The notes: generated by a model not told the origin, from the letters alone. Counted from the first letter of the stretch, positions 11,250 to 57,328 are shown. The stretch is DNA of 64,000 bases from Oscillochloris sp. ZM17-4 (GCF_019599295.1 NZ_JAIEWN010000017.1:30067-94066); one strand, 5' to 3'. Made by a program: numbers and translations.

Positions 11250-11365
11250 CCGTCACGCGGGAACGCTCAGGTATGCACTATCAACCCTCGCTCTTGATCG
11301 AATTGACACCAAGATCACGCGCCCATTCACATAAGGTTTATACGACCCAGATACTCTACAATGGG

Positions 11366-11410
11366 GATCGAGGGAGATCGGGGGATCTCTCTCGATCTTT
11401 ACTTTTTTTG
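11366..11410 (+). terminator. Intrinsic terminator of the partner-switch operon
   Basis: Arms of 14 bases (11366-11379 and 11384-11397, one G-T pair) enclose a 4-base loop and are followed by TTTACTTTTTTTG. It separates the regulatory genes from the glycosyltransferase genes that start at 11432. Confidence 0.8.
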
Positions 11411-11431
11411 TAGTAAGGGAAGCAGCATCTT

Positions 11432-12547
11432 ATGGGCATCTACAATATCGGCTTCATCATGGAACAGGCGCTCGGACATGTCACCCACACCAAAAACCTC
11501 CAGGCGAATGTCCCAAATGACCCCGAGGTGCGCGCCTATTGGGGGCTGATCCCGTTTGAGACTACCGGTATCGCCAGCCGGATCCCGATCTATAAGAGTA
11601 ACTGGACGGTGCGCGCCGGGCTACGGGCACGCGGGGAGGTGGCACGTATCGCCCGCCAGACAAAGCTTAACGCGCTATTCTTTCATACACAGGTTCCGGC
11701 CATCCTTGCCACAAGCTGGCTCCAGAAGATCCCAGGAATCGTCTCACTCGACGCAACGCCGATGCAGTATGACCAGCTCGGCACCTTCTATCAGCACGAG
11801 CAGGGGCCAGACTGGCTCGAAGGCCTGAAGTGGCGACTGAACCGCGACTGCTACCGCGCCGCGCGCCACATTGTGGCATGGGGCGAATGGACGAAGCGCG
11901 GTCTCGTCGATGACTATGAAGTGCCCGCCGATAAGATTACCGTTATCCCGCCCGGCGTGAATGTGCGAGATTGGAAGCGGCCCACCCCGCGCATGCGGCA
12001 CGATGGCCCTGTGAAAATACTTTTTGTCGGTGCGAACCTTGAGCGCAAGGGCGGCCTGCTACTGCTCGACGCCTTCCGCGCCCTACGCCCGCTTGGAGTC
12101 GAGCTCCATCTTGTGACGAAAGATAAAGTAGCAACGGAGCCAGGACTCTTCGTTTATAACAATATGCAGCCGAACAGCCAGCCGCTCAAGGATCTGTACC
12201 ACAGCTGTGATATTTTTGCGCTGCCGACCTTCGGAGACTGCCTGCCCATGGTGCTCTCTGAGGCAGGTGCCGCCGGCATGGCGGTGGTCTCGACACATGT
12301 GGCAGCCATCCCTGAGATCGTTCGTAATGGCGAAACCGGGCTGACAGTGCCAGCCGGCGATACCGCTGCGCTCACCGAGGCCATACGCCAACTGGTCATG
12401 AGCCCCAACCTGCGGATGAGCCTAGCCGAGCGGGCGATGGCGCATGTCGCCCGTGAGTACGACGCCCAGAAAAACGCTGGCCGCCTGCTCGATCTGCTCA
12501 AGGGAGAGGCCGACTTGTCCCGTATAAAAATGAAAGTTGCCACATGA
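11432..12547 (+). CDS. Glycosyltransferase, GT4 family
   Basis: This 371-residue GT-B glycosyltransferase shows the GT4 C-terminal signature: a donor-binding stretch ILFVGANLERKGG, FALPTFGDCLPMVLSEAGAAG with the E-x7-type pair, and PEIVRNGETGLTVPAGD. N-terminal acceptor-side features include the H-x-E-Q-G segment around residues 125-130. The donor and acceptor sugars cannot be read from sequence. Its ATGA end overlaps the next glycosyltransferase start by four bases, so the pair is co-translated. Confidence 0.9.
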   Translation: MGIYNIGFIMEQALGHVTHTKNLQANVPNDPEVRAYWGLIPFETTGIASRIPIYKSNWTVRAGLRARGEVARIARQTKLNALFFHTQVPAILATSWLQKIPGIVSLDATPMQYDQLGTFYQHEQGPDWLEGLKWRLNRDCYRAARHIVAWGEWTKRGLVDDYEVPADKITVIPPGVNVRDWKRPTPRMRHDGPVKILFVGANLERKGGLLLLDAFRALRPLGVELHLVTKDKVATEPGLFVYNNMQPNSQPLKDLYHSCDIFALPTFGDCLPMVLSEAGAAGMAVVSTHVAAIPEIVRNGETGLTVPAGDTAALTEAIRQLVMSPNLRMSLAERAMAHVAREYDAQKNAGRLLDLLKGEADLSRIKMKVAT

Positions 12548-13647
12548 ATAACCAAGTTCTTCTGACTGTCTCCGGCACAATCGCCGCCGACATCGACACG
12601 AAGATCGCTGCAGGGTCACGGCCACGGGCCGACTACCGCGCTCTCGCAGAGGCATTTGGGGCCGACTTGCTCGACTACCCTGCAGCTAGGGGGGTGGCCG
12701 GCTCTTTTGGAAAAGCGCTCGAGCGGATCGGCGGGCCAGATCTGATGCTCGCCTGGGCATGCTTCATGCTTCGCCACCGCTACAAGGTCATCGTCACCGA
12801 CGGTGAGCAGATCGGGCTACCGCTGGCCACACTGCTCAAGTTCTTGGGGCCTGGGCGCCGCCCACGGCACCTAATGATCGCTCATATCATCTCGGTGCCG
12901 AAGAAGATGATCTTCCTCGACCGGCTCGGCGTACAGAGCCACATCGACCGCTTCCTCGTCTACGCAACAGCGCAGAAGCAGTTCATCGAGCGACGCTGGA
13001 AGATCCCAAGCGCGCGCGTCGTCTTCACACCCTTCATGGTCGACAGCGACTTCTTCGCGCCTGACCATGTGCAAGCCAACGATGCGGAGCCGATGATCTG
13101 CGCGGTAGGGCTCGAGCGGCGCGACTACCCGACGCTCCTGAAAGCGGTTGCTGGCCTACCGGCGAAGGTGATCATCGCCGCCGCCAGCCCCTGGTCGAAG
13201 CGCAGCGACACCACCGAGGGCCAGGACATCCCATCAAATGTGGAAGTGCGCCGTTTCACACAGTACGAGCTGCGCCAGCTCTATGCCGATAGCCGATTCC
13301 TGGTGATGCCACTGGAGAATGTAGAGTTCCAGGCCGGGATCACCGCAATCCTAGAGGCAATGTCGATGGAGCGAGCGGTCGTCTGCTCGCGGACAACCGG
13401 ACAGACGGACGCGATCATCGAGGGTGAGACCGGCACCTATGTGCCGCCGAAAGACCCTGAATCGCTACGGGCAGCCATGGAGCACCTGCTGTGGCACCCC
13501 GAGGAGGCCGAGCGCATGGGCAAGGCGGGCCGCCGAATCGTCTTACAGCACATGAGCCTCGATAGCTACGCCGAACGGCTAGGCCAGCTTGTCCGCGAGG
13601 TGCTCGCCGAAGCAGAGGGCGGCACATCGAAGATGATGCGTGTGTAA
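12544..13647 (+). CDS. Glycosyltransferase, GT4-like
   Basis: The 367-residue protein has a divergent N-terminal half (LMIAHIISVPKKMIF) and a recognisable GT4-type C-terminal half: ICAVGLERRDYPTLLKAV, FLVMPLENVEFQAGITAILEAMSMERAVV, and GETGTYVPPKDPESL. It starts inside the stop of the preceding glycosyltransferase gene. Its sugar specificity is unknown. The residue spacing in the E-containing motif (QAGITAILEAM) is standard, so it is probably active. Confidence 0.85.
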   Translation: MNNQVLLTVSGTIAADIDTKIAAGSRPRADYRALAEAFGADLLDYPAARGVAGSFGKALERIGGPDLMLAWACFMLRHRYKVIVTDGEQIGLPLATLLKFLGPGRRPRHLMIAHIISVPKKMIFLDRLGVQSHIDRFLVYATAQKQFIERRWKIPSARVVFTPFMVDSDFFAPDHVQANDAEPMICAVGLERRDYPTLLKAVAGLPAKVIIAAASPWSKRSDTTEGQDIPSNVEVRRFTQYELRQLYADSRFLVMPLENVEFQAGITAILEAMSMERAVVCSRTTGQTDAIIEGETGTYVPPKDPESLRAAMEHLLWHPEEAERMGKAGRRIVLQHMSLDSYAERLGQLVREVLAEAEGGTSKMMRV

Positions 13648-13711
13648 TGGCGGATCAAGACTGAATCGCTACTCTGCGTCGCTACTCTGCGTTCGCCATG
13701 ATGGAGGCCGC

Positions 13712-14905
13712 GTGGCATCACTTCTTTCGACCCTGACACGCCTGCTCATCGCCGGCGAGGTAGGGCTCGCGCTGATTATCGACTATCTGCTCCTGCTGAC
13801 CGCAGCGGCACTCTTCGCAAAGCGGCAGACGCCTCTGCGTGACGGCAGCCCATCTCACCGATTCGTGATCATGGTGCCCGCCCACAATGAGGAGCTGCTG
13901 CTGCCTCAGCTCCTGGAGAATCTGGATCAGCTCGACTACCCTCATGATCTCTACGCCGTGCATGTGGTGGCTGACAACTGTAGCGACCGTACGGCGGAGC
14001 TAGGCCGCGCCCACGGGGCGACCGTCCATGAACGGTTCAACACCGAGCTCATTGGCAAGGGCTACGCATTAGAGTGGCTGCTCCAACAGATCTGGGAGCG
14101 GGGCGACACCCATGACGCCGTCATTATCCTTGATGCAGACTCGGTTGTCTCGCCAAACTTCTTGCGGGTGATGGACACGCGCCTCGCGCGGGGCGAGCGC
14201 GTGATCCAGGCATACTACGCAGTGCGCGCACCCGAGAACGCCCGCAGCGCAGGGATCCGCGCGGTGGCGCTGACGGTGCTCCACTACCTACGGCCCCAGG
14301 GTCGGATGGTGCTGGGCGGCTCGACTGGTCTCAAAGGGAATGGCATGGTCTTCGCCGCCGATATCTTGCATAAGCACCGATGGACAGCCTCGCTCACTGA
14401 AGACATTGAGTACCACATGGAGCTGATCCGCGCCGGCGAGCGAGCAATGTTTGCGCCTGATGCGGTGGTATGGGCAGAGATGCCAGATAGCCTGAAGGCC
14501 TCGCAGACACAGAACGAGCGCTGGGAGCGCGGGCGTATGGAGATGATCAAAACCTACGTGCCCAGCCTGATCAGCGATGGACTACGACGTCGCAACTTCT
14601 TACTGCTGGATGCAGCTATCGAACAACTGATACCTCCCTTCTCAGTGGTGGCAGGGCTCAGCGTGATAGCACTAATAGCCGCCCTGCTGCTGCGAAGCCC
14701 TCGGGCTATCGCTCTGGCAGTAGCGATCATCATCGGCCAGATCATCTACATCTTCGCGGGGCTCGTCCTCGCACGCGCGCCACGCGCAGTCTACCAGGCA
14801 CTGCTCTTCGCCCCGGCATTCATGTTCTGGAAGATCTGGCTCTATGTGCGGATGCTGCTGGGGATCAAGCCTGGCGGCTGGATCCGCACCGCTCGTAACG
14901 GATAG
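13712..14905 (+). CDS. Membrane GT2 glycosyltransferase (cellulose-synthase/hyaluronan-synthase-like)
   Basis: I chose the GTG at 13712, which has GGAGG 5 bases upstream and begins directly with a membrane segment; the longer frame from 13640 has no ribosome site. The roughly 397-residue protein has an N-terminal membrane helix and the GT2 core (MVPAHNEELLLPQLL, DNCSDRT, ILDADSVVSPNF with the DxD-type motif). TEDIEYHMEL and NERWERGR correspond to the ED and (Q/R)xxRW motifs of processive enzymes. Two or three C-terminal helices (about 310-385) complete it. It could polymerise or act on a lipid-linked acceptor. A hairpin follows at 14926. Confidence 0.88.
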   Translation: MASLLSTLTRLLIAGEVGLALIIDYLLLLTAAALFAKRQTPLRDGSPSHRFVIMVPAHNEELLLPQLLENLDQLDYPHDLYAVHVVADNCSDRTAELGRAHGATVHERFNTELIGKGYALEWLLQQIWERGDTHDAVIILDADSVVSPNFLRVMDTRLARGERVIQAYYAVRAPENARSAGIRAVALTVLHYLRPQGRMVLGGSTGLKGNGMVFAADILHKHRWTASLTEDIEYHMELIRAGERAMFAPDAVVWAEMPDSLKASQTQNERWERGRMEMIKTYVPSLISDGLRRRNFLLLDAAIEQLIPPFSVVAGLSVIALIAALLLRSPRAIALAVAIIIGQIIYIFAGLVLARAPRAVYQALLFAPAFMFWKIWLYVRMLLGIKPGGWIRTARNG

Positions 14906-14925
14906 ATCACCCCTTCGCGGTGGCA

Positions 14926-14980
14926 GAGTGCGGCGTATATGATAGTTCAGCCTCGCTGAGTTATTGCACACGCCGCACTC
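14926..14980. terminator. Nested hairpin at the end of the first glycosyltransferase block
   Basis: Outer arms GAGTGCGGCGT / ACGCCGCACTC enclose an inner TCAGC-CTC-GCTGA hairpin. There is no strong T-run. It lies between convergent genes (ends at 14905 and 15131) and could serve both. The remaining bases up to 15130 include a weaker GCGTTGC/GCAACGC repeat (15039-15064) and no gene. Confidence 0.55.
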
Positions 14981-15130
14981 CTGATTCTGCTGCCCAAAAT
15001 TACGGGTGTATGGACATTTTTAAGCTACACGAACCTGAGCGTTGCCTTTTTGGCAGCGCAACGCGAGCAGTCATCACATCTGTGTCGGCCAGAGAAACCG
15101 TGTTTCTGAGCAAGATCCTCTTGCTACGAG

Positions 15131-18100
15131 CTAATCAGGCGGGCCTGTCGAGCACGGATGATAGCGCCGCCTATATCTATGCGCATGGCGGTAGGGCCAT
15201 GTGACCCGATGGAATAAGCGTGTAACATAAATCATGTTACGCGCTAAAAACAACGATTTTACGCTTGTGGAAGCTTGTGGTGGTGGTTCTGCTACCTGTC
15301 TCGGTTCTTTCTTTGGCGGAACGATGCGCCCTCGGCGGATCAGAATCTTTCTTCGGTAGGATCGTTGCTGTTCGGCCGACGAACAAACATCGTGTCGTAT
15401 TTGGTGCCCATGGCGTAGCCGCAGGCGTATCGCAACATACTCCCAGTACTTTCGCACCGTTGCGTAGCTCACATTTGATGCGTGAGCGAGATCATCGATG
15501 CTGAACCAGCGCTTTCCTGCCGTGAGCAGACGTTCGGCCGCTTCAATGATACTAGCTCGGGCTGCCTCTTGCCGCCCTATGTTGCTCGTGGGCGAGGCAT
15601 TGCCTTCTCTGACAGTGGTTGGCAAGAGCCCTGGCAGAGGCATACCGAAGAGCAGGGTGATCTGAGCTTCTGGGTGGTCGAGTGGGCGTCCCCGCAGCGC
15701 GCACTGCACCATCTCAGCCTCGCGTCTGCTCTCAAGGAGGGCGGTCAGTCGGTCGTCGGCGAAGATCGGCACTTGTACAGACCAGCGTGCGCCGGTCGCA
15801 TCTTCGAGTATCCGCTCGGTAGCGATGATCTCCTCGTTGAGTGGGTCTCTGTCATGGGCGAAGAGCGCCCTCCCTTCGCGGACAATCGCCTCAAGATTGG
15901 GGTGATATATCTGGGCGAGGATGACGTCGTAGCCTTTATAGGCGTTTGAACCGCGTAGCGCCCCGTAGTGGGCGACCTCGATCTGCTGGTGTCCGTGTGC
16001 GGTCAGGAATTGGCGAAGGTCGTTCACACACGCTTGCGTGCAGACCACGAGTGTCGGTCGGTCAGGGCGAATCTGGGCCGACACCTCGGCATACCAGTTT
16101 GTGCGCCGTGTTCCGCGAAGGGTTGATTTTGCCCAGTCGCGGGTGATGATTTGATGTACCTGTGCGCCGCTCGTGATGTCTGGGCGCTGGATCTGGATCG
16201 GTGCGTCTGGGAAGATCGCGCGCAGCAGGCTATCGCTCACGGTCGCGTCGAGGATGATCTTTGGCTGCTCTGGGTTCGCCAGCTGGGCGATCAGGTGCTC
16301 GATGCGTAGGAAGAGGAGCAGGCGTCCGCTGCTGAGCTCGATCCGGCTGGTGAAGGGTATCCCGGTGAGGTGAAGCCGTCGCTCGTGGGCGATCTGCTGG
16401 AGGAGTATGGCAAGGTAGTTCGGCGGCAGCGCCTCGTATGCGCTGAGCCCGGCGCCTTGGGGAAGTCCTGGGAGTATTGAATGCTCATCGTCGGTCGGTA
16501 GGTTCGCACAGGCCGTGTTGAGGATTGTATCAAGACTGAGGCCCTCGGCGCGTGCAGTGCTCTCCAGATCGGCTAGGAGCATGACTCCTGTGAGGAGCCG
16601 ATCAGTTGTTCCGGCTAGCACGAGGCTGATCCAGCGGAGCACCACGTGGGTATGTGGGCATGTACTGGTGCGGCCCATAGCGGCGAGATCGGCGCTGGTC
16701 AGGTGTACGATCCGGGTGAGGCGCGCGGGGTCAAACTCGTCGAGGACGATGACTCCAGCGCGCTCCCACCATCCGGTGGCCTGAAGCAGCGGCATCGGCG
16801 CGAAGAAGTGGGCGTCCTGGCTGAACTGGCGTAGGTAGATGCAGTGGTCGACGTAGGGGCAGCGGCGTCGGCAGAGGGTGTCGCGTACGCTGTAGCCCTT
16901 TGCGCTGAGCACTTGCGCCTCACCGAACTTGCGGCAGTTTCCGGGGTTCCTCCCGTGAAGCGGGGTCAGCTCTAGCCCATCTTGGTCACGAATCTGCTCT
17001 TTGCGCAGGGCTGTCCAGACGATCCTCCCTGGCTCGTTATCGCTGCCCTCAAGGTAGGATTGCAGGCCGGCGATGGTGTTGTGGCCTTTGCCTGAGCCGG
17101 GTGGGTGGGCGAGGACGAGGAATCCCTGTCCGGCCTGCGCGTGCTCGCGTACCTGTACCGCGATTTGCGCCCTGACATCGCTTAGGCGTATTGTGGGTCT
17201 ATGCGTTGCTGTTGGGGCGCTCGTGGACTCTTCAAGGCGCTTTGGGCGGGCGCGACGGGTCGGGTATGTCTGTAGCTGGGGGAGCTTGGCTGCTGTGAGG
17301 AGGTTGCGCGGCAGTGCGCGATGAAAGTCACGTAGGGTCGGCGCAGTATCAATCAGGTGCTGGAGTCGTGTGGCGCTGTGGTCGAGCAGGAAGGCGTCAA
17401 GGTCGGCCTTCTGCTGACCTGGTGCGATCGGGAGGCGCAGAACACGCACCTCCAGCCCGGCTTCGGCGAGGCGTTGCCCATGGCGGATGCTCCATGTCTC
17501 TTCGGGGGCGAGCTGGGGCAGGTCATCCTTGATGGGGCGTGGCCCGCTGTCGTAGGCCAGGATAATGGTGCGGACGCCGCGGCTGCGCAATTGGTTGGCC
17601 CATTCCTCGCGGATGTATGAGAGGCCTGGGTGGGCCATCGCGGGGATGCTCAGTTGACCCGCTTGATAGGCCTGGGTGACAGCGAGTGCCTTGAACTCAC
17701 CCTCTGTGAGGATGATTGTATCTGCGTCGTCGAGGTCGTCCCAGCCGAAGGGGAATGTCGCACCGCGATCAGTGTAGCCGCCCGGGAGTGATTTGTAGCC
17801 CTTTCCGGGGTAGCTGCGAGCGCGTAGGTCGACGATCTCTCCGTCGGCGATGTAGGGGAAGATCAGGGCACCGCAGAGATTTGGGTGTGCGCGCAGATCG
17901 CCGGCGTGATCTTGTACGAGTACGCCAGCCTCTTCGGCATAGGCTATCAGCTCGGGGCAGTCGCGGCGCAGTAGCTCCGGGATGGCCTGTGGGTCGCGCA
18001 GGGTGGCCCCAAGGATGTGTCGGCTGACTGTGCTGCGGTCAATACCGCGCTGTCTGATGTAGTCTAGCGGCTCGGGGTTGGCCGGATCGCACAGAATGGT

Positions 18101-18433
18101 ATGTGCCCAGAGCGCGATGGTGGCGTAGATCTGGCGGTAGTGCTCCTGTCGATCCTGTGTGGCTGGCGGAGATAGGTGCCGGGCTGAGGGACGGCGGGAC
18201 GTGCCCATTCTGGGCCTGATCTCTTCGCCGAGGAGCTTCGTCAGCGGCCCCTTTGCGTCACAGCTGCGGCACCAGTAGCGCTCGTGGCCGGGCTCCATCC
18301 AGACATGGAAGCGGTCGCTGCGCTGGTCTCCGCCGCAGAAGGGGCACGCGCCAACATGCTCCTTGGTGCGGCGACTCACCAGCCGCAGCGGCGGGAGTTT
18401 GTTTGGGAGGGTTATGGTTGGCTGTCGGTCCAT
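15131..18433 (-). CDS. Zinc-finger/TOPRIM primase-like protein with DinG/XPD-like helicase region
   Basis: This 1100-residue protein has a CHC2-type zinc finger (C30-x2-C33 ... C55-x2-C58) and a TOPRIM region (ILTEGEFKAL 241-250 and ILAYDSG 291-297). A P-loop ATPase core follows, with PPGSGKG 444-450 and DEFD 565-568. A motif-VI-like VQCALRGRP sits near 909-917. Between Walker A and B sit four cysteines, C500-x20-C521-x3-C525-x5-C531. This is the position and spacing style of the Fe-S cluster in DinG/XPD helicases. A helix-turn-helix-like stretch (about 978-995) and a basic tail end the protein. The combination fits a plasmid- or phage-type replication protein that binds origin DNA, unwinds it and supports priming. 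It is divergent from a strong promoter and lies beside iteron-like repeats. No separate polymerase-type primase domain was recognised, so primase activity is not certain. Confidence 0.8.
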   Translation of the reverse strand: MDRQPTITLPNKLPPLRLVSRRTKEHVGACPFCGGDQRSDRFHVWMEPGHERYWCRSCDAKGPLTKLLGEEIRPRMGTSRRPSARHLSPPATQDRQEHYRQIYATIALWAHTILCDPANPEPLDYIRQRGIDRSTVSRHILGATLRDPQAIPELLRRDCPELIAYAEEAGVLVQDHAGDLRAHPNLCGALIFPYIADGEIVDLRARSYPGKGYKSLPGGYTDRGATFPFGWDDLDDADTIILTEGEFKALAVTQAYQAGQLSIPAMAHPGLSYIREEWANQLRSRGVRTIILAYDSGPRPIKDDLPQLAPEETWSIRHGQRLAEAGLEVRVLRLPIAPGQQKADLDAFLLDHSATRLQHLIDTAPTLRDFHRALPRNLLTAAKLPQLQTYPTRRARPKRLEESTSAPTATHRPTIRLSDVRAQIAVQVREHAQAGQGFLVLAHPPGSGKGHNTIAGLQSYLEGSDNEPGRIVWTALRKEQIRDQDGLELTPLHGRNPGNCRKFGEAQVLSAKGYSVRDTLCRRRCPYVDHCIYLRQFSQDAHFFAPMPLLQATGWWERAGVIVLDEFDPARLTRIVHLTSADLAAMGRTSTCPHTHVVLRWISLVLAGTTDRLLTGVMLLADLESTARAEGLSLDTILNTACANLPTDDEHSILPGLPQGAGLSAYEALPPNYLAILLQQIAHERRLHLTGIPFTSRIELSSGRLLLFLRIEHLIAQLANPEQPKIILDATVSDSLLRAIFPDAPIQIQRPDITSGAQVHQIITRDWAKSTLRGTRRTNWYAEVSAQIRPDRPTLVVCTQACVNDLRQFLTAHGHQQIEVAHYGALRGSNAYKGYDVILAQIYHPNLEAIVREGRALFAHDRDPLNEEIIATERILEDATGARWSVQVPIFADDRLTALLESRREAEMVQCALRGRPLDHPEAQITLLFGMPLPGLLPTTVREGNASPTSNIGRQEAARASIIEAAERLLTAGKRWFSIDDLAHASNVSYATVRKYWEYVAIRLRLRHGHQIRHDVCSSAEQQRSYRRKILIRRGRIVPPKKEPRQVAEPPPQASTSVKSLFLARNMIYVTRLFHRVTWPYRHAHRYRRRYHPCSTGPPD

Positions 18434-18534: not shown

Positions 18535-18665
18535 GGCGATACTGTTATTTCGCGATGGCACTCCTTTCTTGCTATTGCGATGGGGCCTTCGACTACGTGC
18601 TTGGCGGCGTGGTAGTCGAGGGCCTTTGCCATGCCCGCGTGCCATTTCCGGCTCGCGGGTTTTTC
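18535..18665 (+). ncRNA. Candidate small RNA divergent from the replication gene
   Basis: This transcript of about 130 bases is predicted from the promoter at 18499-18528 to a terminator at 18634-18665. It contains a stable stem (18584-18596 with 18612-18624, 13 pairs with one G-T), then a GC-rich terminator stem. A 78-codon frame from 18555 runs through the terminator and lacks a ribosome site, so coding is unlikely. If the primase-like mRNA begins upstream of about 18540 on the other strand, this RNA would be antisense to its leader, as in plasmid copy-number control. That is inference; no family match is claimed. Confidence 0.45.
18634..18665 (+). terminator. Intrinsic terminator of the candidate small RNA
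   Basis: CCCGCG (18634-18639) pairs with CGCGGG (18654-18659) and is followed at once by TTTTT. It has the classic order for the + strand. Confidence 0.55.
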
Positions 18666-18721: not shown

Positions 18722-18813
18722 TTCGTGTAGCTCGACTCTGGGCGCGTATCTATGCGCTGAGTCTATCAAAATCTCGCGCCATACTCAATAGGTTTGCGCG
18801 CCAGTATGCGCGA

Positions 18814-18895
18814 ATCTCGCGCCAATCTCGCGCCACTCGCGCCACTCGCGCCACTCGCGCCACGTTCGCGCCACGTTCGCGCCACGTCTGCGCCA
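18814..18895 (+). repeat. Eight iteron-like direct repeats (core TCGCGCCA)
   Basis: Eight head-to-tail units of 11 or 9 bases were read: two ATCTCGCGCCA, three CTCGCGCCA, two CGTTCGCGCCA and one CGTCTGCGCCA. A further partial copy lies at 18771-18780. The 11-base period is about one helical turn, as expected for binding sites lined up on one DNA face. Together with the DnaA-box-like site and the adjacent replication-type gene this resembles an origin. No spacers are present, so it is not a CRISPR array. Confidence 0.7.
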
Positions 18896-18964: not shown

Positions 18965-19945
18965 CTACTTGCGTGCGAGGCGGTAGCGCGCCCGTGAGGT
19001 CGGCCCATCCATCTGAACCAGGCCAAGCTTGAGCATGATCTGGAGGTCACGCTGGACATTGCGCCGGGCCTCGCCTATTGCGTCAGCCAGCTCGGCGCTC
19101 GTGGCCGCACGACGCCCGCCGATTTCGGCCAGGATCCGCTCCTGGCGTAGAGTTAGGGTCAGATCATCGACACCCTCAGTCTGACTCATCGGCCGGGCGA
19201 ACACCTGGAAGGTGAAGAATGTCGTGTCGTCGTGGTAGATCGGTGGCTCGCAGCCCATGCTGGCAAGGGTGTCGAGCACGGTATCGATACCCATGCCGAA
19301 CTTCTCTACCAGGCCGCCATGGTAGAGAAGCTGGGCCAGCGCCGGGTTGCGCGAGACCTGGGCGACTCGGATGTTCTCCACAGTGACGCCTGCGGGTAGG
19401 CCTCCCGGCGTCACCCAGCGGATGAAGCCGGGGTGCATTTCGATGCGGGCGATTGCCCCGGCCAGGCCCCAATCGCGGTGGCAGAGGGTGTTGACTGTTA
19501 GCTCACGCAGCACTGTGGTGTTGAAGGCATGCTCTTCAACGCGCTCTGCGCCCTCTAGGCGGTAGCGGTGTTCGGATCGTGCCCAGAGCAGATCGACGGT
19601 GCGGTTGATCACGTCAATGATCGGCCCGCGGATCTGGCGCGAAAAGACCATGGCGGTCGAGTGGGCGTTTGGTCCGCTGAACTGGGCGATGTCGACGCCT
19701 GCGGTGTCGAGCCAGCGATCCGGCTCGGCGGCGAAGACCAGCATGCCCGCAATCGTTGGTCGTAGCGCGTCTTCTTCGGAAGTGAGGCAGTGGTAGCGCT
19801 GGAGATATGCGATCGAATCGGTGGTCCCCTCGTAGCCGCGTCGCTCGACGGCGGTGCGGATGTGGCGCCGCACGAGGTCGAGGTCGAGATCCTCGATGCG
19901 CGCGCCAGCGACTGTCTGGCGCTCATTGAGTCTCTGGTCGATCAT
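18965..19945 (-). CDS. HATPase_c_4/AlbA-family regulator lacking its N-terminal domain
   Basis: The 326-residue protein matches the C-terminal two thirds of Schlafen/AlbA_2-type transcriptional regulators (also called RecG-like ATP-binding proteins). Visible landmarks are LRELTVNTLCHRDW, a sandwich with TPGGLPAGVTVENI, RNPALAQLLYHGGLVEKFGMGI, and a C-terminal winged-helix-like region (RQERILAEIGGRRAATSAELADAIG). The usual N-terminal AlbA_2 domain of about 120 residues is absent. The sequence begins where that domain would end (TVAGARIEDLDLDLVRRHI). rfbC lies only 12 bases upstream, so the missing part is not encoded there. It is probably a truncated or rearranged regulator co-transcribed with rfbC. 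Confidence 0.75.
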   Translation of the reverse strand: MIDQRLNERQTVAGARIEDLDLDLVRRHIRTAVERRGYEGTTDSIAYLQRYHCLTSEEDALRPTIAGMLVFAAEPDRWLDTAGVDIAQFSGPNAHSTAMVFSRQIRGPIIDVINRTVDLLWARSEHRYRLEGAERVEEHAFNTTVLRELTVNTLCHRDWGLAGAIARIEMHPGFIRWVTPGGLPAGVTVENIRVAQVSRNPALAQLLYHGGLVEKFGMGIDTVLDTLASMGCEPPIYHDDTTFFTFQVFARPMSQTEGVDDLTLTLRQERILAEIGGRRAATSAELADAIGEARRNVQRDLQIMLKLGLVQMDGPTSRARYRLARK

Positions 19946-51829: not shown

Positions 51830-54800
51830 TCAAGCATGATTGGCATGATCGGCTGTGCTCGTTAATATCATGGGCAGGTAGAGCCGTGACGGTATCACTG
51901 GTGCCTCTGAAATCACACTCAGCACACCACCAGTGAAGCGGATCGTGTAGTTCGCTGCTGCCAGTGTGCCCTGGGTGATCGGGTACGTGCCCACCGGGCT
52001 CCTCGCGGTCGCCGTCGTCGTGAGCATACCCGTCAGTGCCGTCGTCGCTGTGTCACCGTTCATGAGTCCGCTCACTACGTAGGTCAGCGCCGGCAGTTGT
52101 CCTCCTGCCACTACGGTCTGATTGTTCGCTGCCACCATCAACAGTGCTGGAGTAATAGTGAACACTTCCTCAGTGTAGGTGATCGTGTAGTTAGCCGCTG
52201 CCAGCGTGCCCTGGGTGATCGGGTACGTGCCCACCGAGCTGCTGGCTGTCGCGATGGTGGTGAGCTTGCCAGTCAGGGCAGTGGCCGCCGTATCATTGTT
52301 CACAAGCCCGCTCACACGGTAGGTCAACGCAGGGTTAGCCTCCCCATAGCCCCTGGTCCTTCCATTCGCCTTTACTGCTAATGGGGCCTTGTCGATAACG
52401 AGTGTGAAGGTCTGAGTGGCGGGAGCGCCGGGGCCATTTGCGGCGCTGACGGTGATGCCCACGTAGGTGCCAGCCTTGGTGGGCGTACCACTCAGCACGC
52501 CGGTCATCGGATTCAGGCTCAATCCAGGCGGGAGGGTGTTGGTCGTAACGCTGAAGCTGGGCGCGGGCTCTCCGCTGGCGGTGAAGGTGTGGCTGTAGCT
52601 CGCACCGTAGCTACCTGCGGGTGGTGCGGCGCTGTCGAAGGCCGGGGGCGTGCTGGGGGCAGTGAGTGTAATGTCGTTGCCATCACCGCCGGCATAGCTG
52701 AGGGTCATCGCTATGCTGCCCACCATCACGGTGGTGCCCTCACTCAGGCCGTCAAAGACGCCGCTCACGGCGTCACTACCATCATTGGCGATGAGGAGTA
52801 GCACGTCTCCAGGGGAAGGGGTGTAGTCCGACGCGCTCATCGTGAGGGGGCCGCCAAGGGTGACCGGGCCATTGACACTCACTTGATCGCGCTGGCCATC
52901 GGCGGTGCCATTCACCGTGAGCTGAAGGCCGCCGCTCAGGCTCAGGCTTCCGGTGATGGTGGTGGTGCCGAGCGTCGCACCGCCCGGGGCAAGGGGCGCG
53001 CCCTGTACCGTGACGATGCCGGTGATATCGGTGAGCTCGGCCGCGCCGAGGCCAGCGTAGGTCTTGCCATCCCCGCCGCGCAGATCCACCAGCACAGCAG
53101 CTGTACCTGCGTCGATACGACTGCCGGCCGTCATCTGCACATGGGCATCACCCAGCTCACATTGGGCGTTGACGACACCCCCGGCGAGCGTGTCGTTAGC
53201 GATCAGGATGAGGGGGGCGCTGTCCGTGACGAGATCCGCGTCGAGGTGAATACTGCGCCCTGCGCTCAAGGTGAGCGTGCCGCCTGGGCCATCAGGGTTG
53301 GCGACGGCCAAGGGCGCGGTAAGGCTGAGGTCATTGCTCGCCTGCAGCGTCAGCGCGGCGCCGACCCCAAGGGATTTCGCGAGGAGCTCCGGCCTGACGG
53401 TGAGGCTCTCGGCAGCGGCGCGGGCGTAGATGAGCTGGGCCGCGTCGGTGAAGCCGACGACCACGCGCCCTCCGCTCGCGCTGCTCTGAACGATGAAGGT
53501 CTTGTTCATCGCGTCGGCGTAGAGGCCGGGGCTGGAGCCGGTGTTGAGGATGCTGTTTGCCGCTGAGACCGGGCCGAATGGGCCGCCCGCCCCGCTCCCC
53601 CAGATCACGGCGCCTGCATCTACCACGGCGCCATTGTCCCAGCCGGGGCTCGGGATGATGTAGTCGTCTCCCAGCTCGAAGATATCCTGGTCGCCGACGC
53701 CATCCTGGGAGGTTGTGCCCACGAGAGAGTTGGCGGCGGTGATCGGTCCGACGATGCCGCTGGCCCCGTCCCCCCAGGTGATGGCCCCAGCGTCCACCAG
53801 CGGGCCATTATCCCAGTTCGGGCTTTTGACCAGGTAGTTGCCGTGGCTAATTATGCGCGACATCCGATTGCCGACAAAATCGCCGGGGGAGGATCCGACG
53901 AGGGAGTTGGCGGCGGTGATCGGCCCGACGATGCCGCTGGCCCCGTCCCCCCAGGTGACGGCCCCGACATCCACCAGCGGGCCATTATCCCAACGTGGGC
54001 TTGAAACGACATAGTTGCCGTCGCCGACGGCGGTCGGCCAGCTACTGCAAACCTTGTCGTTGGCGGTTGTACCCACCAGAGAGTTGTCGGCAGAGACAAC
54101 GCCCATAACGCCGCTTGTCCCGCTCCCCCAGGTTGCCGCGCCGGCATCAACTACCGCACCGTTGTCCCACCACGGGCTGCTGACGACATAGTTGCCATTC
54201 TTCAGCGCGGTCAGATAGCCATATCCGACCTGATCAGCAGTCGCGCTGCCGACGAGGGAGTTGGCGGCCGAGATCGGGCCGACGGTGCCGCCCGTGCCGC
54301 TGCCCCAGGTGACGGCCCCGGCGTTCGTGGCAGCGCCGTTATCCCAGTTCGGGCTGCTGATGACATAGTTGCCGTTGCTCAGGGCGATGGCGTGATACTC
54401 GCCGATCCTGTCGCTGGGGCTGCTACCGACGAGGGAGTTAGCGGCCGAGATCGGGCCGACGGTGCCGCCCATCCCGTTGCCCCAGGTGACGGCCCCGGCG
54501 TCCACCACCGCACCGTTGTCCCAGATTCCGCTGCGGACGATATAGTTGCCATTGGTGAGCGCGAAGGTGATGGAGACGTAATCCCCGGGGGATGAGCCGA
54601 CGAGGGAGTTGTCTGCGGAGACGGGGCCGACGGTGCCGCCCATCCCGTTGCCCCAGGTGACGGCCCCGGCGTCCACCACCGCCCCATTGTCCCAGCTGCC
54701 GCTGGGGACGACGTAGTTGCCGTTGCTGAGCGGGATGATCGGGCTATTGCCGACCCGATCACTCGTAGTGGAGCCGACGAGGGAGTTGGCGGCGGAGACG

Positions 54801-57328
54801 GGGCCGACGGTGCCGCCTGTCCCGCTGCCCCAGGTGATCGCACCCGCATCCGCCGCTGCGCCATTCGTCCAGTACGAGCTGAGGACAACGTAGTTACTGT
54901 TGGTGAGCTGGGTCACGCCGCGGTCGCCAATAATATCAAAGCTGGAGGAGCCGATGAGCGAGTTGTCTGCGGAGATGATGCCGGTGACGCCGCTGTCACC
55001 GTTGCCCCAGGTGACGGCGCCTACGTCCATCATCGTGTTGTTATCCCACCATGGGCTACTAACGACGTAGTTTCCGTTGGCGAGGGCGATCGCAACGAGG
55101 CCGCCAACCTGATCCTCGGCGGAGGAGCCAATGAGGGAGTTGTCTGCTGAGATGGGGCCGGTAACGCCGCTGTCCCCGCTGCCCCAGGTCATGGCCCCCA
55201 CATTGGCGAGCGCGCCATTGTCCCAGCTCCAGCTGCCAGCGACGTAGTTGCCGTTCTTCAGGGTGATAATAATGCTGCTCCCGACTCGATCACTCGAAGT
55301 GGAGCCGACGAGAGAGTTCGCGGCTGAGATGGGGCCAGTAATGCCGCTGACCCCGCTGCCCCAGGTGATGGCTCCGGCGTCTAGCACCGTGCCATTGTCC
55401 CACAAGGGGCTGCGGGCGACGAAGTTACCGCTTGGGAGGGCGGTCATACCGCCGCTGCCAATCTGGTCATTGGCGGTGGAGCCGACAAGGGAGTTCGCAG
55501 CCGAGATAGCGCCGAGCGTGCCGCCCGCCCCACTGCCCCAGGTGACAGCCCCGGCGTCCAGCACTGTGCCATTGTCCCACAAGGGGCTGCGGACGACGAA
55601 GTTGCCGCTGCTGAGGGCAGTCACGCCGCCACTGCCGACCTGGTCATTTGCCTTGGAGCCAGTGAGCGTGCTGAGCAGCGCGCCCGTCAGCCCGTCGAAG
55701 AGGTAGACAGCCCCGGCGTCTTTCGCTACAGCGTCATCGCCTACGTCGATAACCACAATACTACCCTGCGTCAGAGGCACGATCCTGTTGCCAAATGTAT
55801 CCCCCACCGCTGGCGTGGGGCTGTGCAGCTCGAACTGCGGCAGGGCCCCGTCAGCGGCAATGGTGAGATTCTTGGGGTCGAGCAATGCTTCCCCGGCGTG
55901 GCCGGCCGGCGCGCTCACGTCAGGTGTGGCCCCCAGACGCAGCTCGGTCTTACCGGACAGCTCCACAAATCCGCCATCCCCGGCCTGCCACCCTCCCCGC
56001 ACGCTCACCGCCCCAGATACCTCGGTCAAGCCGTCCGACCAGACGATAATGCGCCCGCCGTTGCCCTGTTCGATGGCATTCGCTTGCAGCGCAGTCCCCC
56101 TGGCCAACGTCACCGCAGCAGCGTTGATCACGGCCGGGTTGCGCCCCTGGAGGTCTCCGCCCACACGGATGCGCCCACCTCCGGCGGCGCCAGAGGCGTC
56201 GACTGTGGCCGATATCAGCTCCAGCGTGTGGCCCAACAGATCGACCCGCCCGCCTGCCCCGGTAGCACCTGTGGCGGTGATCGCGCCGCTGGTGAACAAG
56301 TGCCCGGTCGGGCCTCCGTCCAGTACCACCACGCCGCCCACATCGCCCCTGGCGTCGAGGCGGGCGGCGGCAGTAGCCTGGTAGATCTCGGCGAAGCGCA
56401 CTGCGATGGAGGGGGCGGTGAGGACACCAGCCTGTACCACGGCGCGGGCATGCGCCGACACCCGTGTGGCGACCAGATCGCCGGTGATGATCAGGGCGTC
56501 GGCGCGCAACGCTGCGGGGCCAGCGACATCCAGGCGTGCGCCTGCGGCAAGGTCGAGCACTCCCGCAGCCGTCAGATCAAGGCTGGCAGCGCTGACCGGC
56601 ACCATCACCGTGAGCCGGTCAACATCCGCGCGAAGCTCGCCCCTGAGGGCCAGGGGGGCGGCGAGCGTCACCGGCCCGTCGCTGCGAAGGTACAGGCTGC
56701 CAAGAACCGGCAGCTCTGCGACCGTCAGCCCGATTGGCCCCTCCACCATCACAGCGCGCAGATCGGCATGGGCGAGGGCAGGTAGAGGGGCGGCAAGGCG
56801 GGTCAGCGCGCCCTCGGGGGCGAGGGTGAGCACTCCGCCTGCGGATGTGAGGCGCAGCGTGTCATAGGCATCGCCGCCGCGTAGCGTGAGGGTGCCGGAG
56901 GCGGAGTCGAAGCTCGCCGAGGGAGCTGCGCCCCGAGGGAAGATGGCGGGGGCACTGTGGGTAACAGTATCAGAGAAGGGGGCGGCCGGCACCTCGACGG
57001 CACAGCCTGTGTCGGGCGAGGTATCGATGTAGTCACCTGACACCTGGTAGCGGCCGTTGCCGGAGGTTGTGGCGCAGCCCTCCACAGGAAAGCTGGAGAG
57101 TCCATCGTGAGGGACCGTCCGGTCACGTGCGCCCGAGGAGGCTCCTGCCATCTGTAGGAGCGAGCGTGGGGTGAGCAGGAGCGGCCAGATGAGCGCAACA
57201 GCGAGGGCACACAGAAGTGTGGGCGAGACTATTGCCGGACGTGGACGGGAAGGAAGAGAAGGAAGCATAGCGGGTTGTGTGGTCCATCTGGCAGTGATGG
57301 AGCGAGTCGTGCTTACGCACGAGAGCAT
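51830..57328 (-). CDS. Large repeat-rich surface protein (12 x about 59-aa repeats, Ig-like and MBG domains)
   Basis: The 1832-residue protein has a hydrophobic segment near residues 33-55 (LLCALAVALIWPLLL), so a signal peptide is likely; the start (57328 or 57268) is uncertain. A beta-helical adhesin-like region (about 130-480; LTLRGGDAYDTLRL, GRIIVWSDGLTEVSGAVSV) precedes twelve repeats at about 560-1268. Each reads approximately NGNYVVxSPxWDNGxxxDAGAVTWGxG...SAANSLVGS. After them come a beta-rich stretch, a putative Ig-like domain (about 1559-1640) and two MBG domains (about 1644-1725 and 1726-1805). The C-terminal SRLYLPMILTS carries the YLPM motif seen in other secreted proteins here. 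It is probably a cell-surface or extracellular adhesin. Confidence 0.85.
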   Translation of the reverse strand: MLSCVSTTRSITARWTTQPAMLPSLPSRPRPAIVSPTLLCALAVALIWPLLLTPRSLLQMAGASSGARDRTVPHDGLSSFPVEGCATTSGNGRYQVSGDYIDTSPDTGCAVEVPAAPFSDTVTHSAPAIFPRGAAPSASFDSASGTLTLRGGDAYDTLRLTSAGGVLTLAPEGALTRLAAPLPALAHADLRAVMVEGPIGLTVAELPVLGSLYLRSDGPVTLAAPLALRGELRADVDRLTVMVPVSAASLDLTAAGVLDLAAGARLDVAGPAALRADALIITGDLVATRVSAHARAVVQAGVLTAPSIAVRFAEIYQATAAARLDARGDVGGVVVLDGGPTGHLFTSGAITATGATGAGGRVDLLGHTLELISATVDASGAAGGGRIRVGGDLQGRNPAVINAAAVTLARGTALQANAIEQGNGGRIIVWSDGLTEVSGAVSVRGGWQAGDGGFVELSGKTELRLGATPDVSAPAGHAGEALLDPKNLTIAADGALPQFELHSPTPAVGDTFGNRIVPLTQGSIVVIDVGDDAVAKDAGAVYLFDGLTGALLSTLTGSKANDQVGSGGVTALSSGNFVVRSPLWDNGTVLDAGAVTWGSGAGGTLGAISAANSLVGSTANDQIGSGGMTALPSGNFVARSPLWDNGTVLDAGAITWGSGVSGITGPISAANSLVGSTSSDRVGSSIIITLKNGNYVAGSWSWDNGALANVGAMTWGSGDSGVTGPISADNSLIGSSAEDQVGGLVAIALANGNYVVSSPWWDNNTMMDVGAVTWGNGDSGVTGIISADNSLIGSSSFDIIGDRGVTQLTNSNYVVLSSYWTNGAAADAGAITWGSGTGGTVGPVSAANSLVGSTTSDRVGNSPIIPLSNGNYVVPSGSWDNGAVVDAGAVTWGNGMGGTVGPVSADNSLVGSSPGDYVSITFALTNGNYIVRSGIWDNGAVVDAGAVTWGNGMGGTVGPISAANSLVGSSPSDRIGEYHAIALSNGNYVISSPNWDNGAATNAGAVTWGSGTGGTVGPISAANSLVGSATADQVGYGYLTALKNGNYVVSSPWWDNGAVVDAGAATWGSGTSGVMGVVSADNSLVGTTANDKVCSSWPTAVGDGNYVVSSPRWDNGPLVDVGAVTWGDGASGIVGPITAANSLVGSSPGDFVGNRMSRIISHGNYLVKSPNWDNGPLVDAGAITWGDGASGIVGPITAANSLVGTTSQDGVGDQDIFELGDDYIIPSPGWDNGAVVDAGAVIWGSGAGGPFGPVSAANSILNTGSSPGLYADAMNKTFIVQSSASGGRVVVGFTDAAQLIYARAAAESLTVRPELLAKSLGVGAALTLQASNDLSLTAPLAVANPDGPGGTLTLSAGRSIHLDADLVTDSAPLILIANDTLAGGVVNAQCELGDAHVQMTAGSRIDAGTAAVLVDLRGGDGKTYAGLGAAELTDITGIVTVQGAPLAPGGATLGTTTITGSLSLSGGLQLTVNGTADGQRDQVSVNGPVTLGGPLTMSASDYTPSPGDVLLLIANDGSDAVSGVFDGLSEGTTVMVGSIAMTLSYAGGDGNDITLTAPSTPPAFDSAAPPAGSYGASYSHTFTASGEPAPSFSVTTNTLPPGLSLNPMTGVLSGTPTKAGTYVGITVSAANGPGAPATQTFTLVIDKAPLAVKANGRTRGYGEANPALTYRVSGLVNNDTAATALTGKLTTIATASSSVGTYPITQGTLAAANYTITYTEEVFTITPALLMVAANNQTVVAGGQLPALTYVVSGLMNGDTATTALTGMLTTTATARSPVGTYPITQGTLAAANYTIRFTGGVLSVISEAPVIPSRLYLPMILTSTADHANHA
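53520..55650 (-). repeat. Twelve tandem coding repeats of about 177 bp
   Basis: The repeats encode the WDNG...GAVTWG...NSLVGS unit of the surface protein. Neighbouring copies are similar at DNA level (for example those near 54600-54800), while outer copies have diverged. Twelve units would suit one or two beta-propellers, but this has not been modelled. Confidence 0.85.

Follow-up and report, generated by a model that had tools for sequence, protein, structure and literature searches.

Helicases of the XPD/DinG fold are known as motors of DNA repair, transcription and CRISPR systems. Here we describe a gene at positions 15131-18433 (minus strand) of a 64,000-nucleotide stretch of DNA from the green filamentous bacterium Oscillochloris sp. 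ZM17-4 (Chloroflexales; GCF_019599295.1 NZ_JAIEWN010000017.1:30067-94066; the whole stretch is hereafter the window, and positions are counted from its first letter), whose product probably serves as replication (Rep) protein to a chromosomally located element of plasmid-like or integrative kind; in it, an XPD/DinG-fold helicase with a four-cysteine module is fused to a DnaG/TOPRIM primase. The fusion of a TOPRIM-type primase with a DEXD helicase as a plasmid Rep is already known from CyRepA1, a cyanobacterial plasmid Rep reported to be necessary for the replication of pSYSA (PMC9978351, PMC10079941). CasDinG has a vestigial cluster domain that lacks three of the four cysteines (PMC10450177). 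The mobile-element fusions surveyed so far use DnaB, D5, RepA, MCM, VirE, DUF927/DUF3987 or UL9-like motors, and DinG is absent from the text of that survey (PMC5862659); a 2025 review of DinG-like proteins distinguishes ten groups and mentions neither primase nor TOPRIM (PMC11981726). The combination of a DnaG-like primase and a DinG-like four-cysteine helicase is unmentioned in both. A literature search with little coverage of subscription journals returned no primase-DinG fusion, and an earlier description is possible.

The gene is a single uninterrupted open reading frame with an ATG start and no internal stop, and encodes 1100 residues arranged as follows.

15131-18433, minus strand: primase-helicase gene P0001, 1100 residues, under purifying selection in comparison with its orthologue at the corresponding ZM16-3 locus
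18260-18346, minus strand: C4 zinc ribbon, residues 30-58 (C30, C33, C55, C58), invariant in 10/10 close homologues; weak Pfam matches to CHC2/primase zinc ribbons
17309-18166, minus strand: DnaG-type RNA polymerase core and TOPRIM, residues ~90-375 (E244, D295), matched by phrog_47, TIGR01391, Pfam DNAG_N and the DnaG structure PDB 4e2k
17075-17101, minus strand: Walker A (motif I), variant PGxGKG[HF]N; G448 and K449 100% conserved family-wide
16823-16954, minus strand: four-cysteine DinG/XPD-like cluster module, GRN..C500 ... C521..C525.....C531xYxxQ, aligning to the four cysteines of the host-lineage DinG
16730-16750, minus strand: Walker B/motif II (VLDEFDP); D565 and E566 0.97 conserved family-wide
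16259-16726, minus strand: helical insert that separates motif II from the LDAT motif, at the XPD/DinG arch position in the secondary structure of the helicase model
15599-16261, minus strand: second RecA-like domain, with LDAT, HYGALRGSN and REAEMVQCALRGRP (motif VI) blocks; Q910, R914 and R916 100% conserved family-wide; also placed by Foldseek
15419-15574, minus strand: C-terminal helix-turn-helix (HTH), residues ~954-1005; Pfam HTH_15 in 3/10 members, TetR HTH 2fq4 in a profile search
15134-15346, minus strand: basic tail, poorly conserved (57% identity to the orthologue; ratio of nonsynonymous to synonymous differences, pN/pS, 0.51)

A first-pass annotation of the sequence had described a CxxC...CxxC finger, TOPRIM motifs, a P-loop/DEFD helicase core, a C-x20-C-x3-C-x5-C set between Walker A and B, and an HTH with a basic tail, and all of these motifs are present. 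The finger consists of C30, C33, C55 and C58, the TOPRIM motifs are TEGE at residues 243-246 and YDS at 294-296, and the helicase core carries a Walker A-like PPGSGKGH at 444-451 and VLDEFD at 563-568, with the DE box at 565-566. The cysteines, C500-x20-C521-x3-C525-x5-C531, lie between Walker A and the DE box with exactly the spacing described, and the tail follows the HTH. Walker A is atypical (GKG[HF]N), and the TOPRIM DxD is actually D-S-x.

The N-terminal half is, as judged from profile matches, a divergent DnaG-type primase. It matches the phrog_47 DNA primase family (7.2e-18, residues 22-299) and TIGR01391 dnaG (3.5e-6, residues 20-364), and we call it divergent since the latter score is far below the family cut-off. 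Pfam DNAG_N was matched in 4 of the 10 family members (best 1.1e-6), and a profile search of PDB returned the DnaG structures 4e2k (1.3e-4) and 5guj. The zinc ribbon, the DNAG_N/RNA polymerase core and TOPRIM stand in the order of DnaG. In the TOPRIM acidic set E ... DxD, E244 and D295 are invariant, and the second acid of DxD is replaced (D-S-[GQ]) in 10/10; several distant relatives have a TOPRIM DxD.

In the helicase half, the four cysteines are conserved as strictly as the catalytic motifs. Among ten close homologues, all full-length or nearly full-length Chloroflexales proteins, 8 of the 18 cysteines of the protein are cysteine in 10/10, and these are exactly the predicted metal ligands; of the remainder, C798 is kept in 9/9 and the others in 1-8 homologues. 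The background is 185 invariant columns out of 546 in the helicase domain. Across a family of 34 sequences, which takes in divergent plasmid and chromosomal relatives (the most distant share ~20-25% of residues with the window protein), C500/C521/C525/C531 are conserved at 1.00/0.91/1.00/0.97 (rows with a residue there), a level equal to that of Walker A, the DE box and motif VI. The first-pass annotation had hung its reading on these cysteines recurring in homologues, and all four are invariant in the close ones; as in DinG/XPD, they lie between motifs I and II, in 10/10 close homologues and in the wider family bar three proteins with C-H-H-C. No helicase family in Pfam, NCBIfam or PHROG matched the C-terminal half of the window protein, DEAD_2 (PF06733) had no match at E ≤ 1 in the window protein or at E ≤ 0.1 in the homologues, and a sequence search of PDB gave weak P-loop matches only, XPD among them at E 0.3-0.65.

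For profile comparison we used chromosomal DinG from 21 related genomes, including the window's own, gathered by PF06733. Their site reads LKGRxNYLC - x58 - C-x4-C-x5-CFFFxARRxAExAHIVVVNHALL - IIDEAHNL, that of the window protein LHGRNPGNC - x20 - C-x3-C-x5-CIYLRQF - VLDEFDP, and relatives such as L075 (L numbers denote homologous loci) read CPYLTSLERARNADVVFAVHQSFL. HHalign against 16 DinG proteins of the related genomes gave a probability of 95.8 (E 7e-9) with all four cysteine columns superposed. Since a superfamily 1 (SF1)-type family scores equally (96.5) when the P-loop is included, the P-loop was removed, and DinG then scored 92.5 (score 52.5) against 67.5 (37.9) for the SF1-type control; reversed DinG fell to 0.2, and column-shuffled profiles scored ≤16.8.

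The predicted fold points the same way. An AlphaFold2 model of the helicase built from 22 sequences reached a mean local confidence (pLDDT) of 79.9 and a predicted template modelling (pTM) score of 0.80, and in Foldseek its top 13 PDB matches are XPD, DinG, CasDinG and TFIIH-XPD (E 1.6e-9 to 1.1e-4, probability 1.00). Prp43 and UvrB come after these, at E 2.5e-4 and beyond and with template modelling (TM) scores of 0.25-0.29. This model replaced an earlier one from 8 sequences (pLDDT 61.6), whose top six matches were CasDinG, DinG and XPD at E 3e-3 to 3e-2. Alignment A5 places the DE box of the phage rows wrongly and was retained since the resulting model was good. The modelled domain thus has a superfamily 2 core of two RecA-like domains in the XPD/DinG fold, and its helical insert (16259-16726) is likely the equivalent of the XPD/DinG arch.

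Several observations weigh against this reading of the protein and its locus. When the cysteines are masked, the P-loop-free DinG match drops to a probability of 26.7, below the SF1 control, which rises to 77.7; the sequence evidence for DinG kinship is therefore specific but leans on the cysteines. The TM-scores of the top 13 matches are just 0.42-0.48 (normalised to the query) with a root-mean-square deviation near 10 Å, so that domain placement differs or is uncertain in the model. Walker A of the close family, GKG[HF]N, has no T/S directly after the lysine, where distant relatives have GKT or GKS, which might weaken the ATPase site or be compensated; likewise, D-S-[GQ] for DxD might weaken the TOPRIM active site or be compensated. 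Beside the window gene we saw neither a partition gene nor an integrase or relaxase, and rep and its regulator lie among exopolysaccharide genes in two species, at the same site in the window and in ZM16-3. The fold match is support for DinG kinship that is independent of the cysteine pattern, and fold and cysteines together give good evidence that the helicase half is XPD/DinG-type.

The helicase recurs with different primases. Besides the window copy, the source genome has another full one (56% identity) and a third that is frame-disrupted, and ZM16-3 has three full copies and one fragment. The family is patchily distributed, with some match in 16 of 41 near relatives (in several of these to ordinary DnaG only), and its members are annotated as hypothetical protein, toprim protein or DEAD/DEAH helicase. 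Helicase profile A2, built from 16 helicase regions, matches along its length alphaproteobacterial plasmid proteins (E 1e-22 to 1e-88), a Candidatus Chlorohelix plasmid, other Chloroflexota and one viral contig. The plasmid and Chloroflexota relatives were gathered by whole-protein searches, without selecting for cysteines, and every row covering the site has the four cysteines bar three; in the Chlorohelix protein L121, the last one, placed after a long insert, is of uncertain register. In phage records, tblastn gave no match, and few helicase relatives turned up on viral contigs before an alignment of phage-plasmid relatives was used in the search. Twenty more viral contigs carry the helicase, TOPRIM-helicase fusions among them; one cysteine block was part of the search patterns, so these contigs do not count as independent evidence for it. 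The helicase is fused to a DnaG/TOPRIM primase in Chloroflexales, to a DUF3854 primase in L075 and L121, to a Toprim_3 primase in L129, L134 and L163, to Prim-Pol in L132 (L123 is so annotated) and, in place of TOPRIM, to an NrS-1-type polymerase domain in L074 and L098, and in L072 and L133 a TOPRIM primase is a separate gene within the helicase locus. The partner types, at least three of them primases, are interleaved on the helicase tree. Primases are exchanged while the motor stays, which fits a replication module rather than a repair gene.

The cysteine site most likely holds a 4Fe-4S cluster, to judge from its likeness to DinG. That the same protein holds a structural zinc ion there instead is rather unlikely; in favour of zinc are three Ktedonobacteria-like proteins (L074, L073 and L098, from G116, G252 and G288; class inferred), which read C-x19/20-H-x1/2-H-x3/5-C at the site, a typical zinc ligand set. 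The four ligands of the window protein also lie within 32 residues, and the fold does not demand a cluster, given that the CasDinG domain stands without one (PMC10450177). Against zinc, spacing and motif (GRxxxxC ... C-x3/4-C-x5-C-x-[YF]) match the DinG cluster site of related genomes. The C-H-H-C trio is the sister group of the Chloroflexales clade (support 97/89), with the four-cysteine L072 (on a long branch) outside, and the C-H-H-C set looks derived since the outgroup and the wider family have four cysteines. In this clade (n = 3), metal binding seems to be kept with changed ligands; a search for further members within the class of G116 returned the same three only. The DinG-like iron-sulphur (Fe-S) site of the first-pass annotation is thus supported by conservation, profile alignment and fold, with the bound cofactor putative.

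Upstream of the primase-helicase gene lie three further features.

18774-18884, minus strand: iteron array, 8 copies of TGGCGCGA, mostly 9-11 base pairs (bp) apart, between the regulator and rep genes
18965-19945, minus strand: regulator gene, 326 residues, HATPase_c_4 (Pfam PF13749, 6.8e-12) and winged HTH, upstream of rep
18584-18624, minus strand: leader hairpin, GGCCCTCGAC...GCCGCCAAGCA...GTCGAAGGCC, recurrent upstream of rep

The candidate origin noted beside the gene is a real iteron array (~18774-18884): 8 of the 11 copies of TGGCGCGA in the window fall within its 111 bp, and, as in iteron-type replicons, the short direct repeats adjoin the rep gene. A promoter-like TTGAGT-N17-TAGACT, recognised by eye at 18760-18788, has the last iteron in its spacer, and a protein bound to the iterons would therefore probably repress rep as well. 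A regulator gene stands near the primase-helicase in eight copies (window, L005, L009, L089, L010, L086, L088 and L081). The repeats differ from copy to copy, being TGGCGCGA in the window, L005 and L086, GCGTGACA in L009, GCGCGACA in L089, AACCGCGCCA in L010 and ATAAACGACA in L088, and copies that share a repeat share the regulator (70-91% identity) and an identical recognition helix, ARRNVQRDLQ.

In iteron plasmids, Rep itself is usually the iteron binder, and the primase-helicase has a C-terminal HTH of its own; we nevertheless consider it rather improbable that this HTH, and not the neighbouring regulator, binds the iterons. The window and L086 have the same iterons and 70% identical regulators, and their Rep HTHs are just 44% identical; the L086 HTH is nearest to that of L009 (62%), yet the L009 iterons differ. 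Since the iteron sequence tracks the regulator and not the Rep HTH, the latter was set aside as iteron reader, and the regulator (18965-19945) is predicted to be the likelier binder. Of the primosome-like initiator first proposed, the primase-helicase fusion thus stands, and the iteron pattern points to the neighbouring regulator as the likelier iteron binder. The iterons, changing from copy to copy with the regulator, offer natural material from which its code of DNA recognition could be deduced. The leader hairpin recurs in L005, L009, L010, L086 and L087 even with different iterons (stem GGCC(C/T)TCGAC / GTCGAAGGCC, loop like GCCGCCAAGCA); it reached the threshold of no Rfam family and could be a copy control element, an attenuator or a priming site.

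The genomic setting of the family is that of replicons: ParA/ParB genes adjoin the homologues L089, L086 and L088, ParA lies near L010, P22_AR/ORF6C antirepressor-like genes lie near several copies, and the wider helicase family is found on plasmid records. The chromosomal copy in the window might instead have ceased to drive replication, as a remnant or a domesticated gene, and serve repair, replication restart or local regulation. This would agree with the absence of partition and transfer genes beside it, with an identical site in two species where rep and regulator only are retained, and with the frame-disrupted copy (L088) in the source genome. We consider it unlikely, given that purifying selection acts over the whole length of the gene and that an iteron array kept almost base for base suggests a replication or control circuit still in use. 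Against the ZM16-3 orthologue, the nonsynonymous rate (dN) is 0.171 and the synonymous rate (dS) 0.91 (dN/dS ~0.19), and the iteron array is nearly identical in L005 although synonymous sites stand at dS 0.9. Since both signs point to selection, the copy is, by these comparisons, kept by selection as a resident replicon module or a domesticated gene. That the P-loop part is a non-helicase ATPase, for which the aberrant Walker A and the lack of a Pfam helicase domain in the window protein might speak, is very improbable in view of the two RecA-like domains, the arginine motif VI, the DE box, relatives that bear a DEAD-type helicase annotation or score weakly as such, and nearest solved folds that are XPD, DinG and CasDinG.

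If the protein is a Rep, the regulator would bind the iterons, both repressing the rep promoter and marking the origin, and the fused primase-helicase would load on the opened strand. Its XPD/DinG-type motor would translocate 5'-3', by analogy with characterised DinG and CasDinG, the duplex would be split at a pore made of the cluster domain and arch, and the zinc ribbon would guide the primase as it lays primers on the exposed strand. These features suggest that a helicase fold otherwise at work in repair has been taken over for DNA replication too, to start it or to drive it. We give about even chances to the broader proposal that plasmid, phage and integrated replicons use an XPD/DinG-type four-cysteine (probably Fe-S) helicase as replicative motor with interchangeable primases, the four cysteines changing to C-H-H-C (perhaps Fe-S to zinc) in one branch. 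Under this proposal, such elements could need Fe-S, or a suitable redox state, to replicate. The fold, fused to primases or encoded beside them on plasmids and phages of Chloroflexota and Alphaproteobacteria, is hardly annotated. Should it prove to drive replication, the few replicative motors of mobile elements would be joined by an Fe-S helicase, and a phylum with a scant genetic toolbox would gain a Rep and an iteron set. Why these helicases carry a cluster is a question for which the four-cysteine and C-H-H-C forms offer a natural experiment.

Other loci of the family and the window deserve mention. Versions of the primase half only (~440-570 residues) occur in Chloroflexaceae (L080, L082 and L083, in G008, G017 and G283), with other conserved neighbours, proteins of 270 and 439-514 residues that have no Pfam match. 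Frame-disrupted copies, by decay or sequencing error, occur in three genomes: L088 9585-11702 and 10778-11536 (G000:C35), L084 5775-8934 and L071 7795-10894. Beside the ParA/ParB-rep copy at L089 (ZM16-3 scaffold 42, 11344-18062), a PLD-like protein, a protein with an MrfA zinc-binding domain and a large helicase stand in a row that resembles the core of a DISARM defence system. The window also holds an uninterrupted open reading frame of 1832 residues at 51830-57328 (minus strand).

Among known systems, the DinG/XPD (Rad3) Fe-S helicases (PF06733; E. coli DinG, archaeal XPD) share with the window protein the two RecA-like domains and the aligned four-cysteine module between motifs I and II, and are its closest solved folds. 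The window protein differs from them in its primase fusion, in the GKG[HF]N Walker A of its close family, in the lack of a DEAD_2 match and in the gap between the first two cysteines, 20 residues against 58 in related-genome DinG; window-type helicases lie on replicons, and the host separately has a DinG repair gene. CasDinG of type IV CRISPR plasmids is likewise a plasmid-borne DinG-fold helicase, but with a vestigial cluster domain and no primase link. CyRepA1 and CyRepA2 (DUF3854 and DEXDc) are alike as plasmid replication proteins that fuse a TOPRIM-type primase to a superfamily 2-type helicase. The window protein is not a CyRepA1 member, having no DUF3854 match at E ≤ 1; its relatives L075 and L121 do match. 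L122, a cyanobacterial plasmid protein of CyRepA-like layout, lacks the four-cysteine insert of the window protein. Phage primase-helicases and the AEP-helicase fusions of mobile elements (PMC5862659) are likewise single polypeptides, borne by mobile replicons, that unite a primase with a helicase, and the NrS-1-type polymerase domain and Prim-Pol are alternative partners of the window-type helicase too.

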